Shown here one piece after another: positions 10,227 to 16,646 of a stretch of DNA of 64,000 nucleotides (within the stretch, counting starts at the first letter, position 1; every line of letters begins with the position of its first letter). Source of the DNA: Extensimonas soli (lineage in GTDB: Bacteria > Pseudomonadota > Gammaproteobacteria > Burkholderiales > Burkholderiaceae_C). The position numbers and the translations under genes were made by a program. The notes under the pieces are model-generated. The model searched no databases, was not told the origin of the DNA, and worked only from the letters and a program-made list of their open reading frames with translations. The DNA lies in assembly GCF_029211265.1 (NCBI RefSeq), contig NZ_JARGEL010000024.1, forward strand, positions 1-64,000, read 5' to 3'.

Positions 10227-10259
10227 GCTGCCAGTGCTTGATGAACAAGCACTGGCAGC
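10227..10259. repeat. Perfect 14-bp palindrome, type member of the dispersed repeat
   Basis: GCTGCCAGTGCTTG (10227-10240), a five-base loop ATGAA, and CAAGCACTGGCAGC (10246-10259) pair without a mismatch. It fills the infB-rbfA gap. In the direction of transcription the stem is followed by TATGGTTTTTG, so it could slow or partly end transcription. The same words recur in degenerate form at many other places in the window. Confidence 0.9.
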
Positions 10260-10267
10260 CATTTTCA

Positions 10268-13201
10268 TCACAAAGTGCGGGCGATTTCCTTGATTTCAAA
10301 GAATTCGAGCTGGTCACCCTCTTTGATGTCGTTGTAGTTCTTGAGCTTGATACCGCACTCGAAGCCTTCCTTGACCTCGCGCACGTCGTCCTTCATGCGC
10401 TTGAGCGATTCGATCTCGCCCGTGTAGATGACGACGTTGTCGCGCAGCAGGCGGAAATGCGCGTCGCGCCGCACCAGGCCATGCGTGACGTAGCAGCCCG
10501 CCACCGTGCCGATCTTGGAGGCCACGAACACCGTGCGGATCTCCGCCGTGCCTGTGACTTCCTCCTTCTGCTCGGGCGCGAGCATGCCCGACATGGCCGC
10601 CTTCAGGTCATCCACGGCGTCGTAGATGATGTCGTAGTAGCGGATGTCCACGTCGTTGCCCTCGGCGAGCTTGCGGGCATTCGCGTCGGCGCGCACATTG
10701 AAGCCGATCACCACGGCCTTGGACGCGATCGCGAGGTTGATGTCGGATTCGCTGATGCCGCCCACGCCCGCATACACGAGCTGCACCTTGACCTCGTCGG
10801 TCGAGAGCTTGAGCAGCGACTGCGCCAGCGCCTCCTGCGAGCCCTGCACGTCGGCCTTGAGGATGATGGGCAGGGTCTTGACCTCGCCCGCCGTCATTTC
10901 GGCGAACATGTTTTCGAGCTTCGCGGCCTGCTGCTTGGCGAGCTTGGTGTTGCGGAACTTGCCCGCGCGGTAGGTGGCGATCTCGCGCGCACGGCGCTCG
11001 TCGCTGAGCACCATGAACTCGTCGCCAGCCTGCGGCACCTCGGTCAGGCCCTGGATTTCCACGGGGATGGACGGCCCGGCGGACTTCGTCGAGCGGCCGT
11101 TTTCGTCGAGCATGGCGCGCACACGGCCGTAGGTCTGGCCTGCGAGCACCACGTCGCCCACTTTGAGCGTCCCCGACTGCACGAGCACTGTGGCCACGGG
11201 GCCGCGGCCCTTGTCGAGCTTGGCTTCGATCACCAGGCCCTTGGCCGACGCTTCGACCGGCGCCTCGAGCTCGAGCACCTCGGCCTGCAGCAGCACCTGC
11301 TCGAGCAGCTCGTCGATGCCCTGGCCGGTCTTGGCCGACACCGCCACGAAGGGCGAATCGCCGCCGTACTCCTCGGGCACGACCTCCTCGACGATGAGCT
11401 CCTGCTTGACGCGATCGGGATTGGCGTCGGGCTTGTCGATCTTGTTCACCGCAACCACGATGGGCACTCCTGCGGCCTTGGCGTGCTTGACCGCCTCCTT
11501 GGTCTGCGGCATCACGCCGTCGTCGGCGGCCACGACCAGGATCACGATGTCGGTCGCCTGCGCGCCGCGTGCGCGCATCGCCGTGAACGCCTCGTGGCCC
11601 GGCGTGTCGAGGAAGGTGATGGTGCCGCGCGGCGTCTCCACGTGGTAGGCGCCGATGTGCTGCGTGATGCCGCCGGCCTCGCCCGCAGCGACCTTGGCGC
11701 GGCGGATGTAGTCGAGCAGCGAGGTCTTGCCGTGGTCCACGTGGCCCATCACGGTCACCACGGGTGGGCGCGGCAGCAGCGGCGCGTTGGCGTGCGCGGC
11801 TTCTTCTTCGGGGAATGCCTCGGGGTCGTCGAGCGCGGCCACCACGGCCTTGTGGCCGAGTTCCTCGACCGTGATCATGGCCGTGTCCTGGTCCAGAGGC
11901 TGGTTGATGGTGACCATCTGCCCCATCTTCATGAGCACCTTGATCACTTCCGAGGCCTTGACCGACATCTTGTGCGCAAGCTCGGCCACCGTGATGGTCT
12001 CGGGCACGTGCACTTCAAGCACGCGCGCCTCGGCCGGTGCGGCATGCGCGTCTTCACGCTGCTCGCGATGGTCCCTGTCGTTGCCGCGACGGCCCCTGGG
12101 TCCGGCACGCCAGGCACCGCGGCCCGCGCCACCGCTCGTATCGCCGCGCGTCTTGATTTCTTTTTTCTTGGCCGTATCGCCGGCCCAGCTCGAGGACAGC
12201 TTGGCCGACTTGACTTCCTTGCTACCGCCAGGCGCTGCGGGCGCTGCCGGGCGCGCACCGCCACCGCCGGCACCAGCGCCAGCCTGCGCAGCCGGCTTGT
12301 GCAACGTGCCTTTTTTGGCGTCGCCCGCAGGCTTGGCCGCGGGTTTGGGCTCTTCTTTCTTTTCTTCCTTCTTGGCCACCATCACGGTTTTTCGAGGTGT
12401 GGCCAGCATGGAACGGATGGCTGCCGCCTCGGCCTCGGCCTTGCGGCGGCGCGCCTCGAGGTCGGCGGCACGCGCGGCCTCTTCTGCGGCGCGCGCTTTG
12501 GACTCGACTTCGGCCTTTTCGCGTTCGGCCTGCTGCTGCGCCGCACGCGCCGCGGCCTCATCGGCCTGGGTGCGCGCAGCCTCCTGCTGGGCCGCCGTGG
12601 CCTTGGCTTTCTTTTCGGCCTCTTGGGCAGCGTAGGCGGCGGCGCGTTCATCGGCTTCGCGCTCACGGCGTTCACGCTCTTCACGCTCGCGCTGCTCGCG
12701 CGCTTCGCGCTCGTGGCGCTGCTGCGCGAGCTCTTCCTCCTGGCGCCGGATCAGCTCCGCCTGCTGGCGCGCCTCTTCCTCGCGGCGCGTCCACTCGCGC
12801 TCCTGCGCTGAAGCCACGGCCGATTCCGGCTCCGTGTCGGCGTGGGCATGCTCGCCCACCAGCGCCGGCGCGCCCATGTCGGCCGTCGCTTCGGCCATGT
12901 CCTCGCGCTTGATGAAGGTGCGCTTCTTGCGCACTTCGACCTGGATGGTGCGCGCCTTGCCGCTCGCGTCAGCCTGCTTGATCTCGGTGGTGGATTTTTT
13001 CACCAGGGTGATCTTTTTGCGGTCACCCGAGGCGGTGCCGTGGCTGGCCTGCAGGTGGGCGAGCAGCTTTTGCTTGTCCGCCTCGGTGAGCTGGTCGGAT
13101 GCACTGGTCTTGGCCACGCCTGCGGCACGCAACTGGTCGAGCAGGATGGCTGGGGATTTTTTGAGTTCGTTCGCGAACTCTGCAACGGTGTTACTGGACA
13201 T
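10268..13201 (-). CDS. infB: Translation initiation factor IF-2
   Basis: GTPase that brings fMet-tRNA to the 30S subunit. The 977-residue protein begins with an IF2_N domain ([20 protein letters not shown]). A long Ala/Glu/Arg/Lys-rich charged linker follows at about residues 130-390, strongly helical and longer than the 890-residue E. coli protein. A second IF2_N copy precedes the G domain. G1 GHVDHGKT is near residue 485, G3 DTPGHEAF near 533 and G4 NKID near 585. Domains II to IV follow. It lies 24 bases downstream of nusA in the classic nusA operon. Confidence 0.97.
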
Positions 13202-13225: not shown

Positions 13226-14710
13226 TCATTGCTGGCCCGCAAACCAATGTTCGCGTGCTTTCATAATCAAGGCCTTGGCCTCATCCTCGGACTGGCCGGT
13301 GATGGCCGTGAGTTCATCGACGGCCAGGTCGCCCAGGTCGTCGCGCGTGTGCACACCGTGCTCTGCCAGCTTGGCGATCAGCTCGGGCGTGAGGCCGTCG
13401 AGGTCGCGCAAGTCCTGCGACGACTCCTCCACGCCTTCTTCGCGCGCGATCTCCATCGTCAGCAGCGCGTCCTTGGCACGCGCGCGCAACTCATTGACCG
13501 TGTCTTCGTCCAGGGACTCGATCGCCAGCATTTCCTGCAGCGGCACGTAGGCCACTTCTTCCAGACTGGAAAAGCCCTCGGCCACCAGGATGTCGGCGAT
13601 TTCCTCATCGACGTCGAGCTTTTCGATGAACAGCTTGCGCAGCGTGGCGGTTTCTTCGGCCTGCTTTTGCGCCGATTCGGCAGCGTCCATGATGTTGATC
13701 TTCCAGCCCGTGAGCTCGGAGGCCAGGCGCACGTTCTGGCCGCCGCGACCAATCGCGATGGCGAGGTTTTCCTCATCGACCACCACGTCCATCGCGTGCT
13801 TTTCCTCATCGACCACGATGGACTGCACGTTCGCCGGCGCGAGCGCGCCAATGACGAACTGCGCCGGGTCTTCCGACCACAGCACGATGTCCACGCGCTC
13901 GCCCGCGAGTTCGTTGGTCACCGCAGTGACGCGCGAGCCACGTACGCCCACGCAGGTGCCTATCGGGTCGATGCGCTTGTCATGGCTCAGCACGGCGATC
14001 TTCGCGCGGCTGCCGGCGTCACGCGCGCAGCTCTTGATTTCGAGCAGGCCCTGCTCGATTTCGGGCACTTCCTGGCGAAAGAGCTCGATCATGAATTCGG
14101 GTGCGGCGCGCGAGAGGATGATGGGCGCGCCGCGCAGCGTCGGATCGACTTCGAGAATGATCGCGCGCACCCGGTCGCCTATGCGCAGATTCTCCTTGGG
14201 GATCATCTCGCTGCGCTTGAGGCGCCCCTCCACGCGGCCGCTTTCAATGATCAGGTCGCCCTTGTCCAGGCGCTTGACGGTGCCGCTGAAGATTTTTTCG
14301 CCGCGGCTCATGAAGTCGCTGAGCAGCGTCTCGCGCTCGGCATCGCGGATTTTCTGCAGGATCACCTGTTTGGCCGCCATCGCGCCTATGCGCCCGATCG
14401 GCACCGATTCGACGGACTCTTCGATGTATTCGCCCACCTCGATGCCGGGCACACGCTCGCGCGCGTCCATGAGCAGCTCTTCGGCGTCGGGGTTTTGCAA
14501 GCCGGCCTCGTCGGGCACGACCAGCCAGCGGCGGAAAGTCTCGTAGTCGCCGGTGTCACGATCGACCGCCACGCGAATGTCCACCTCGCCCTTGTAGAGC
14601 TTTTTCGTGGCCTGCGCGAGCGCCGCCTCGACGGCAGCCAGCACCACGTCGCGCTCCACGTTTTTCTCGCGCGAAATGGCATCGATCAACATCAACAATT
14701 CGCGATTCAT
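13226..14710 (-). CDS. nusA: Transcription termination/antitermination protein NusA
   Basis: RNA polymerase-binding factor that promotes pausing, termination and antitermination. The 494-residue protein starts [20 protein letters not shown]. It has the N-terminal RNAP-binding domain, an S1 domain at about residues 135-200, and KH1/KH2 at about 230-345 ([15 protein letters not shown] and [13 protein letters not shown]). Two acidic C-terminal repeats of helix-hairpin-helix type end in [11 protein letters not shown]. It lies between rimP and infB. NusA may act on the leader hairpin at 15530-15558 upstream of its own operon. Confidence 0.97.
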
Positions 14711-14770
14711 GCGACAACTCTCCTGTAATCCAATCCTTGTGCCCGCGCTCCGCGCGGACCCTGCGAGCGC

Positions 14771-15385
14771 TCAGCCAGCGCGCCCCTTGAAGTCCACGAT
14801 GGGCGCAAGCCGCGCCTCGCGCAACTCGTCGAGCGCGAAGCCCAGCACCTGCACGGGTGCCGGCGCACGCTTCTTGCTCACCCTTTGCCCAGGCTTGGGC
14901 GCGGGCGCATCGCTCCAGACAATTTGCCAGCCGCCCGACGCCGCGCGCTCCAGCGTGCCGCGAAACTTCTTGCGCAGCGCGTGCACCTGCCCTGCAGCCG
15001 CACCGCCTATGGGCGCCTTGAGGGTGATGTCTATCACCGCCCCCGTGAAGCGCATGAAATCCTGCTCGTGGCGCAGCGGCCGGTCTATGCCCGGCGAAGA
15101 CACTTCGAGGCGCTTGTAATCGACCCCTTCGACCTCGAGGGCGAACTGCAACTGGCGCGTAACCTTCTCGCAATCCTCCACCGTCACGAAGCGCTCCACC
15201 GGCCCGGCGGCTTCGGCGTGCCCTGCCGGCTGCACCGCATCCGCATCCGCATCCGCATCCGCATCCGGCGGCAGCCAGGGCATATCGATGGTGACGCGCA
15301 GCAAGCCCCCCGCGGAGCGTTCGACCTCCACCAGGTCGTAACCCAGCCCGCGCACCACTTGTTCGACGACTTGCTGCAATGCCAC
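14771..15385 (-). CDS. rimP: Ribosome maturation factor RimP
   Basis: Needed for 30S subunit maturation. The 204-residue protein is longer than the usual 150-170. I chose the GTG start before ALQQVVEQVVRGLGYDLVEV because that is the family N-terminus; the frame stays open upstream but through non-homologous sequence. The RimP core SSPGIDRPLRHEQDFMRF lies near residue 95. Residues 43-52 are a (Asp-Ala)5 run from a hexanucleotide repeat (15235-15264). A basic insert near 165 and an acidic tail follow. It is the first gene of the rimP-nusA-infB-rbfA-truB-typA array. Confidence 0.93.
   Translation of the reverse strand: MALQQVVEQVVRGLGYDLVEVERSAGGLLRVTIDMPWLPPDADADADADAVQPAGHAEAAGPVERFVTVEDCEKVTRQLQFALEVEGVDYKRLEVSSPGIDRPLRHEQDFMRFTGAVIDITLKAPIGGAAAGQVHALRKKFRGTLERAASGGWQIVWSDAPAPKPGQRVSKKRAPAPVQVLGFALDELREARLAPIVDFKGRAG
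15235..15264. repeat. Hexanucleotide tandem repeat (CCGCAT)5 inside rimP
   Basis: Five exact copies of CCGCAT lie head to tail and encode alternating Asp-Ala on the minus strand. The six-base unit keeps the frame whatever the copy number, so copy changes would alter linker length rather than switch the gene off. Confidence 0.95.
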
Positions 15386-15529
15386 GAAAATCCGTTCTCT
15401 GTGCCGAAAAACAAAAAAACCCGACAACCCCTGAAACCCTGCTTTGCAAGCGGGCCCCTGAGGCTTCGAGCTCCACAAAAACGACCGTTCGAGATGTACC
15501 GCCTCAAATGACCGACTTGGCGATCGACC

Positions 15530-15558
15530 AAAAAAAACGGGCGGATGGCACCCGCCCG
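15530..15558 (-). terminator. Leader terminator/attenuator-like hairpin before rimP-nusA
   Basis: On the minus strand CGGGCGG (15558-15552), a seven-base loop and CCGCCCG (15544-15538) are followed by eight T residues (15537-15530). It begins about 12 bases after the predicted transcription start and about 145 bases before rimP. The outer words CGACC and GGTCG could extend or compete with the stem. On the plus strand it has no T-run, so it acts leftwards. Confidence 0.75.
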
Positions 15559-15576
15559 ATCGGTCGTGAGCCTTGG

Positions 15577-15605
15577 ATTCTAACGGCCAGCGCCCGCTCT
15601 TGCAA
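15577..15605 (-). promoter_or_regulatory. Sigma70-type promoter of the rimP-nusA-infB operon
   Basis: On the minus strand TTGCAA (15605-15600), a 17-base spacer and TAGAAT (15582-15577) give a good housekeeping promoter match. The start would fall near 15570. No gene lies between it and rimP except the leader hairpin. Confidence 0.7.
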
Positions 15606-15668
15606 GCGCTATCGAAAGCAAAAAAGAAGCCAAGCGGACACAAGACGGGGGGATGGAACAATGCACGC

Positions 15669-16646
15669 ATGCCCATTTTTCACGCTCCAGGCCCGCCCGG
15701 GCCGCAAGCCGCGCGCGCCGCAAGCCACCTTCCTTGGTGGGGCCCAGCGCGCCCGCCTTTTTTACTGCTCACTTTCGCCTGCATGGCCTGGGCCGTAGCC
15801 TGCAGCGGCTGGCTGGCGCACCAGCATGGGCAGGTGCTGAACTGGGCCGACGCGGCACTCGCCACCCTGGGCGCGCTGGCAGCGCACCTGGGCACGAATG
15901 CGCTCAACGAATATGCAGACTTCCGCTCGGGCCTGGACGCACAGACGCAGCGCACGCCCTTCAGCGGCGGCAGCGGTGTGCTACCCGCGCGCCCTGCACT
16001 GGCCAGCGTGGCGCTGGGCATGGGCGTGGCCGCTCTGGCACTGAGCGCGGCCACGGGGGTGTATTTTCTTTGGCGGCATGCCGCCGCCCTGCCCGTTTTG
16101 CTGCCGCTGGGGCTGGCCGGGCTGGTGCTGGCCGCCGCCTACACCCCCTGGATCACGCGCCACCCCTGGCTGTGCCTGATCGCACCGGGGCTGGGTTTCG
16201 GCCCTTTGATGGCGCTGGGCACAGCGGCCGTGCTGCTCGGCGGCCTCACGGCGCAGACTGCCGCCACCATGGGCCTTGCGTCATTGCTGCCCTTCGGCCT
16301 GGCGAACGCCTTGCTGCTGCTCAACCAGTTTCCCGACGTCGAGGCCGACCGCCGCGCTGGCCGGCGCACCCTGCCCATTGTGCTGGGCAAGGAGCAGGCC
16401 TGGCCCGTGCTGGCGGCGCAATATCTGCTGGCTTACGGTGCTTTGCTGGCCACCGTGGCGGCCCGCGATGTGCCGCCTGCGGCCTTGCTGGGGCTGCTCA
16501 CTTTGCCCCTGGCGGCAAAAACCATGCACCATGCCGCCTGCCATGCCAACGACACCGCCGCACTGCTGCCTGCCATGCGCTGGAATGTGTTCCTCAGCCT
16601 GGCGACACCCGTCCTCGCCGCCGCCGGGGTGGCTTGGGGGGCCTGA
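15669..16646 (+). CDS. UbiA/MenA-type prenyltransferase
   Basis: A 325-residue integral membrane prenyltransferase of the UbiA superfamily, closest in motif style to 1,4-dihydroxy-2-naphthoate prenyltransferases (MenA). The first Asp-rich motif is NEYADFRSGLD near residue 82, followed by TPFSGGSGVLP. The second, NQFPDVEADRRAGRRTLP, is near residue 220. About eight hydrophobic segments are visible. The start MPIFHAPGPPG is chosen over an upstream in-frame ATG because the intervening 32 residues are polar and unconserved. No other menaquinone genes are present and Comamonadaceae mainly use ubiquinone, so the acceptor is unknown. It is convergent with rnhA. Confidence 0.8.
   Translation: MPIFHAPGPPGPQAARAASHLPWWGPARPPFLLLTFACMAWAVACSGWLAHQHGQVLNWADAALATLGALAAHLGTNALNEYADFRSGLDAQTQRTPFSGGSGVLPARPALASVALGMGVAALALSAATGVYFLWRHAAALPVLLPLGLAGLVLAAAYTPWITRHPWLCLIAPGLGFGPLMALGTAAVLLGGLTAQTAATMGLASLLPFGLANALLLLNQFPDVEADRRAGRRTLPIVLGKEQAWPVLAAQYLLAYGALLATVAARDVPPAALLGLLTLPLAAKTMHHAACHANDTAALLPAMRWNVFLSLATPVLAAAGVAWGA

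Follow-up and report, generated by a model that had tools for sequence, protein, structure and literature searches.

How can an operon encoding core transcription and translation factors be expressed from a promoter that is followed at once by a terminator? This question is raised by the region upstream of rimP in the window analysed here, a stretch of 64,000 nucleotides from Extensimonas soli (NCBI RefSeq assembly GCF_029211265.1, contig NZ_JARGEL010000024.1, positions 1 to 64,000), in which the minus strand carries rimP, nusA and infB in that order. A GC-rich hairpin with a run of eight T, here designated T1, lies close behind a promoter-like site ahead of rimP, and the polymerase would be stopped about 41 nt from its predicted start. 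Whether feedback by NusA reaches a polymerase barely off the promoter, or another factor acts, is of interest as nusA and infB encode core factors of transcription and translation, and as the working of the rimP-leader, the attenuator to which T1 is assigned below, was treated only for Bacillus subtilis and enterics in the papers found. The element is probably a rimP-leader attenuator of rimP-nusA-infB in a promoter-coupled form, with NusA feedback as its most likely control.

Predicted promoter and terminator ahead of rimP

The features of the promoter and of T1 are as follows.

15600..15605, minus strand: -35 element TTGCAA (promoter scan; weak T-T-G-C-A preference in the profile of 73 class I relatives defined below)
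15577..15582, minus strand: -10 element TAGAAT (promoter scan; conservation of the -10 in the family)
15569..15571, minus strand: predicted transcription start zone (usual spacing of 6-8 nt after the -10, and start of the conserved block)
15538..15558, minus strand: T1 terminator hairpin CGGGCGG-loop-CCGCCCG (scan, conservation, alignment and folding)
15530..15537, minus strand: U8 tract of T1 (sequence; a run of 8 or 9 is common in relatives)

A scan of positions 14500-16500 disclosed TTGCAA-17-TAGAAT (minus strand, 15605-15577) as the sole promoter-like site, with 9 of 12 matches and a mean of 0.1 sites in shuffled sequence. Transcription would start at about 15570, so that the stem begins some 12 nt into the RNA and the stopped RNA measures about 41 nt. 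A search of openly licensed papers, with supplements outside it, recognised no rimP start-site data for this order. T1 reads CGGGCGGGTGCCATCCGCCCG followed by T8 (15558-15530, minus strand), and its T-run ends 144 nt ahead of the rimP start codon. The same arrangement, a promoter and then a hairpin with eight U about 12 nt into the transcript, had been proposed in an earlier note made from the sequence, and both the scan and the comparison of the family bear it out; the 7-bp GC stem described there is present as a GC hairpin, which in this genome has 9 pairs and a loop of 3 nt.

The predicted 41-nt RNA folds at -15.8 kcal/mol (z -2.23), a stability reached by 7 of 200 shuffled sequences. The hairpin scan of the minus strand over 14500-16500, in which the lengths of stem and loop are limited, listed a single hairpin in two registers (2 rows) against a mean of 1.8 in shuffles, which taken alone is within chance; it is the comparison with relatives that raises T1 above chance. 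With its stable GC stem and U-tract, T1 has the make-up of an intrinsic terminator, and termination is predicted.

Conservation in the family and the order

A nusA match was obtained in 146 of 150 genomes of the family; 130 of these were covered with their upstream regions, as was one further genome of the genus, giving 131 regions. An automatic rule asking for a hairpin and a T-run selected 124 of the 131 regions, and class counts and profile were built on these rows; with L052, L071 and L108 re-oriented (L071 being already among the automatic rows) and L026 and L128 recognised by hand, a hairpin with T-run stands upstream of rimP in 128 of 131 regions. The T-run has 8 T in 90 of the 124 automatic rows and 9 in 23. 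L026 and L053 have a stem of the same kind with an interrupted or shorter T-run, and may be natural variants of terminator strength.

The automatic rows were divided according to a CGACC-like word within 14 nt before the stem, which is present in 73 rows including the window (class I) and absent from 51 (class II, with 50 sound rows once the mis-oriented L071 is set aside). The column profile of class I displays a conserved block made up of the -10, TTCACGACCAAA, the stem, U8, GGTCG and a short T-rich stretch, with noise on either side. Class II has TGGGCGGA...TCCAGCCCA followed by at least 7 T in 27 of its 50 sound rows, and a local 5' hairpin is clear in some of its leaders and absent in many.

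The promoter is coupled to the terminator in the family. In 104 of 123 rows a -10 hexamer is found whose first base lies 19-46 nt ahead of the stem, compared with 2/123 in a control zone 100 nt further up and 0/123 downstream of the T-run. Of the 71 class I rows with a -10, 53 have a gap of 19 nt from it to the GGGC of the stem. At the level of the order, represented by the 28 best-scoring of 72 matching genomes from other families, all 28 loci have before rimP a hairpin with the arms TGGGC and GCCCA and a short loop, followed by a T-run of 4-10 (preceded by one C in two of them). A -10 was found in 13 of these 28 loci and in 2 of 26 in the control zone, so that promoter coupling is less general outside the family. 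Conservation of the stem in relatives, which the earlier note had named as a check on its proposal, is thus found in 128/131 regions within the family and in 28/28 loci beyond it.

In the alignment of the 73 class I rows 95.7% of the cells of the T1 stem are paired; the GGG never varies, and the next C and the CCC are each conserved in at least 90%. Six of the seven T1 pairs keep their G/C orientation over the 73 rows, with few G-U changes or losses; the lowest pair alone swaps, with 10 rows changed on both sides. Pairs that never swap are what is expected if the letters themselves are read, and this points to selection on the letters of the T1 stem beyond pairing alone. For the structure as a whole, both the paired percentage and the covariation score lie above all 500 shuffles. 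That terminators in this operon are not conserved automatically is illustrated by the gap between infB and rbfA, where a hairpin with T-run (-9 kcal/mol or better) is found in the genome of the window and in none of 29 loci of relatives; this comparison is no control for the stem letters.

T1 is also specific to the region upstream of rimP. The class I core pattern, which lacks the CGACC word, was matched exactly once in each of 12 of the 40 relatives searched and not at all in the remaining 28, and the reversed pattern used as control had zero matches across the 40 genomes. In named species genomes at least 120 core matches were obtained; among the 120 matches listed, 113 lie directly upstream of rimP, 6 have 106 nt or less of downstream sequence, too little for that search to judge, and one (L211) lies elsewhere. 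L211, a Chitinispirillaceae assembly, has a core match without a CGACC box and not at rimP, probably by chance.

The distance from terminator to rimP was 19-176 nt in the 63 family rows used (48 of 124 gave no answer, and 13 of the 76 answers, at 333-398 nt, are probable false matches) and about 17-189 nt across the 113 named loci among the matches listed. The shortest gaps are 19 nt after the T-run (L020) and about 17 nt after the GG following the T-run (named loci). Gaps of about 17-19 nt are too short for a promoter to fit between terminator and rimP in those genomes, and hence any message with the whole of rimP has to read through the terminator, be its origin this promoter or a point further up.

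Two complementary words of the conserved block flank T1.

15562..15566, minus strand: CGACC box near the predicted RNA 5' end (69 of 73 class I rows; 112 of 113 named rimP loci)
15525..15529, minus strand: GGTCG box, the partner of CGACC, contained in read-through RNA only (alignment and fold)

The count of CGACC in 69 of 73 class I rows is not independent, class I having been chosen by a CGACC-like word. Among the 113 rimP loci listed, collected with a search pattern that lacks CGACC, 112 have the word no more than 14 nt upstream of the stem. Over the 73 rows the 5' word is nearly fixed and the 3' word variable, again in a class selected by the 5' word; exact CGACC and exact GGTCG occur together in 37 of the 73, and the outer stem formed by the two pairs in 87.1% of cells. 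Other complementary letters at the outer stem were noted by eye in L006, L072 and L090. The read-through RNA is predicted to fold with a 7-pair outer stem, CGACCGA/UUGGUCG, around an intact T1 (-23.4 kcal/mol, z -2.99); when the complete leader is folded, its 5' part finds a partner further downstream and the T1 hairpin is still kept. The outer stem requires RNA beyond the U-tract, and would therefore form only after escape from the terminator. The alternative fold of CGACC/GGTCG suggested in the earlier note is not supported, since the two words are nested around an intact T1, with less variation in the 5' word than in its partner. A role of the words as antiterminator was considered and rejected, as the minimum-energy folds keep T1 and pair the words around the hairpin.

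Probable attenuation and its proposed control

The element is a rimP-leader, as judged from the signature of its stem, the U-stretch, the gene downstream and its specificity in the genome; the rimP-leader was described as the most ubiquitous attenuator by Naville and Gautheret in 2010 (PMC2965389), and it is also mentioned for Piscirickettsia (PMC5955585). The GGGc...gCCC stem, the U-stretch and the downstream genes rimP-nusA-infB are common to both, and the stem signature, reported there as specific to its place, is so here by the class I core pattern. According to that paper the rimP-leader is without a visible antiterminator or a larger conserved element; the minimum-energy folds here show no competing antiterminator, but class I does contain a larger conserved block. 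Tight promoter coupling, the CGACC/GGTCG block and the second hairpin T2 described below are apparently new features within the openly licensed literature, the supplementary species lists of PMC2965389 lying outside the search.

Transcription attenuation of rimP-nusA-infB at T1, as the earlier note had proposed, is very likely, because a conserved terminator follows the sole promoter-like site found and in some relatives is only about 17-19 nt away from rimP. RNA polymerase would start near 15570, make about 41 nt and meet the GGGCGG/CCGCCC hairpin with its U8, where some complexes would stop and release a tiny RNA while others would continue into rimP-nusA-infB. In the read-through RNA the CGACCGA 5' end may pair with UUGGUCG and close a stem around the intact hairpin. 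Plentiful NusA would give more termination at T1 and scarce NusA more read-through, and T2 could provide a further stop before rimP in this genus and a few relatives.

NusA is the best guess for the effector by precedent. Feedback by NusA was proposed for the rimP-leader on the basis of its conserved stem letters and of older work in E. coli (PMC2965389). A review reports NusA-stimulated termination in the leader of the B. subtilis nusA operon (PMC12288461), and transcripts of the E. coli operon are reported to rise in mutants with reduced NusA termination (PMC6511841). An intrinsic terminator in the 5' leader is common to the B. subtilis operon and the present one, with feedback by an operon product reported there and proposed here; the B. 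subtilis leader measures about 180 nt (PMC2965389), whereas the first stop is predicted here at about 41 nt. In E. coli the metY tRNA gene, several promoters and the terminators t1 and t2 are reported to precede rimP (PMC6511841); here one promoter-like site was found, and there are likewise two terminator-like hairpins, a likeness by description.

Several observations weigh against this reading. The T1 hairpin of this genome is strong and its U8 uninterrupted, while NusA-dependent terminators tend to be weak, and a stop at about +41 may precede the replacement of the sigma factor by NusA. Within the family, L133 has no hairpin and L117 a diverged one without GGGC (the remaining non-positive region, L064, is a contig end of 228 bases only). 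Covariation does not support the outer stem, in which there is one two-sided change and 27 of 73 rows lack the middle pair, and in the structure as a whole 2 pairs show a two-sided change, with a shuffle mean of 1.6 and 254 of 500 shuffles reaching that value. Lastly, the distance to rimP is 144 nt here compared with 4-130 nt in PMC2965389; as the latter is given as an observed range, with mention of a distance filter, it is taken as descriptive and not as defining.

T1 may instead be a fixed brake without regulation, setting a constant fraction of read-through or blocking stray transcription from upstream. An intrinsic terminator can work without a regulator and a constant loss might be tolerable, but a weaker promoter would serve the same end and constant stem letters over 73 rows would be unneeded; a block of upstream transcription would also stop the RNA of the operon's own promoter, and the adjoining gene, of the UbiA family, is divergent. 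This explanation is considered possible but unlikely. A real attenuator might on the other hand be regulated by a cold-shock-type RNA chaperone, with CspA-like proteins melting the hairpin in the cold or in slow growth. This is somewhat less likely still: the stem letters are held without swaps, and Csp proteins are not known to recognise a specific GC stem. CspA, CspC and CspE of E. coli are reported to weaken intrinsic termination inside the metY-rpsO operon while expression of nusA and rbfA goes up (PMC9765468), and cold is reported to raise the operon's transcripts in E. coli, although this rise is attributed largely to promoters (PMC6511841).

The terminated RNA of about 41 nt could itself be the product, as a small regulatory RNA whose gene overlaps the 5' end of the operon. 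The class I letters flanking the stem are conserved beyond the needs of termination, and the rimP leader is named among the attenuator-derived RNAs associated with ProQ (PMC5391140). The element is nevertheless tied to rimP in 113 of the 120 matches listed, class II, by definition without a CGACC box beside the stem, keeps the terminator, and the matches to the small RNA families isrK (RF01394, 23.2 bits for a gathering score of 50, E 0.0063) and isrP (RF01398, 20.2 of 45 bits, E 0.14) fall far below gathering and were rejected, which leaves this explanation a slim chance. That CGACC...GGTCG is a DNA operator for a repressor of the promoter, the hairpin being incidental, appears very improbable: CGACC at the 5' side persists in rows where its partner fails to pair, as an operator might, but the partner word is not strictly kept, and the 28 loci of other families keep hairpin and T-run while the adjoining sequence differs.

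Attenuation under NusA feedback is the preferred reading of the locus. A further and speculative proposal, to which little probability is given, is that the class I form goes beyond a terminator. Promoter spacing, the CGACC word at the start, the hairpin, U8 and GGTCG would together make up a single unit of some 60 nt, and the choice between stopping and reading on would fall within the first 41 nt, while the elongation complex is still immature. Termination would then free a bare fragment, while read-through would close and stabilise the 5' end of the message, so that attenuation would be coupled to protection of the 5' end.

Second hairpin and surroundings of the operon

The remaining features of the leader and the genes of the operon are the following.

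15413..15473, minus strand: T2, a tandem terminator-like hairpin with a U7 tail (fold; shared by few relatives)
14771..15385, minus strand: rimP, with a predicted GTG start codon (RimP_N domain and translation)
13226..14710, minus strand: nusA (NusA_N, S1, KH_5 and HHH_5 domains)
10268..13201, minus strand: infB (IF-2 domains)

T2 had been overlooked in the earlier note, and the hairpin scan, with its limits on stem and loop length, does not list it. It folds at -29.3 kcal/mol (z -3.63), a stability that 2 of 200 shuffled sequences reach. Nine of the 124 family rows carry it and, among the matches listed, so do 13 of the 114 named loci that extend far enough. Its base, CUCGAAGC...GGUU(A/G)UCGGG, does not vary across nine rows, one of them the window, and its apical part varies in length and letters, with the hairpin folding in all eight rows that were folded.

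The identities of the three genes are given by the Pfam domains of their products. The upstream neighbour of rimP is the divergent UbiA-family gene (Pfam), so that T1 is not the natural terminator of a same-strand neighbour. Over the whole 64-kb window no RNA family of Rfam, tRNA included, was found at its gathering score. The Rfam family RF01770 (rimP), named for the same gene, was matched by E. coli (1 of 14 control genomes); its covariance model had 0 matches in the genome of the window and is unlisted in 15300-15800 at E up to 10. Weak Rfam matches to Xoo5 and SorX were rejected.

Within rimP, a tandem repeat of the hexanucleotide CCGCAT (15235-15267, 5.5 copies) encodes an Asp-Ala run. 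Between infB and rbfA, a strong palindrome on both strands (10227-10259) is repeat-like, 9 places in the same genome matching it with at most 3 mismatches. On the plus strand, a GC hairpin followed by six T (15736-15763) stands just before the in-frame ATG at 15783 of the UbiA-family open reading frame, whose Pfam match starts at residue 43 of the longer frame. If the gene starts at 15783, this hairpin could be a leader terminator of the UbiA-family gene too.
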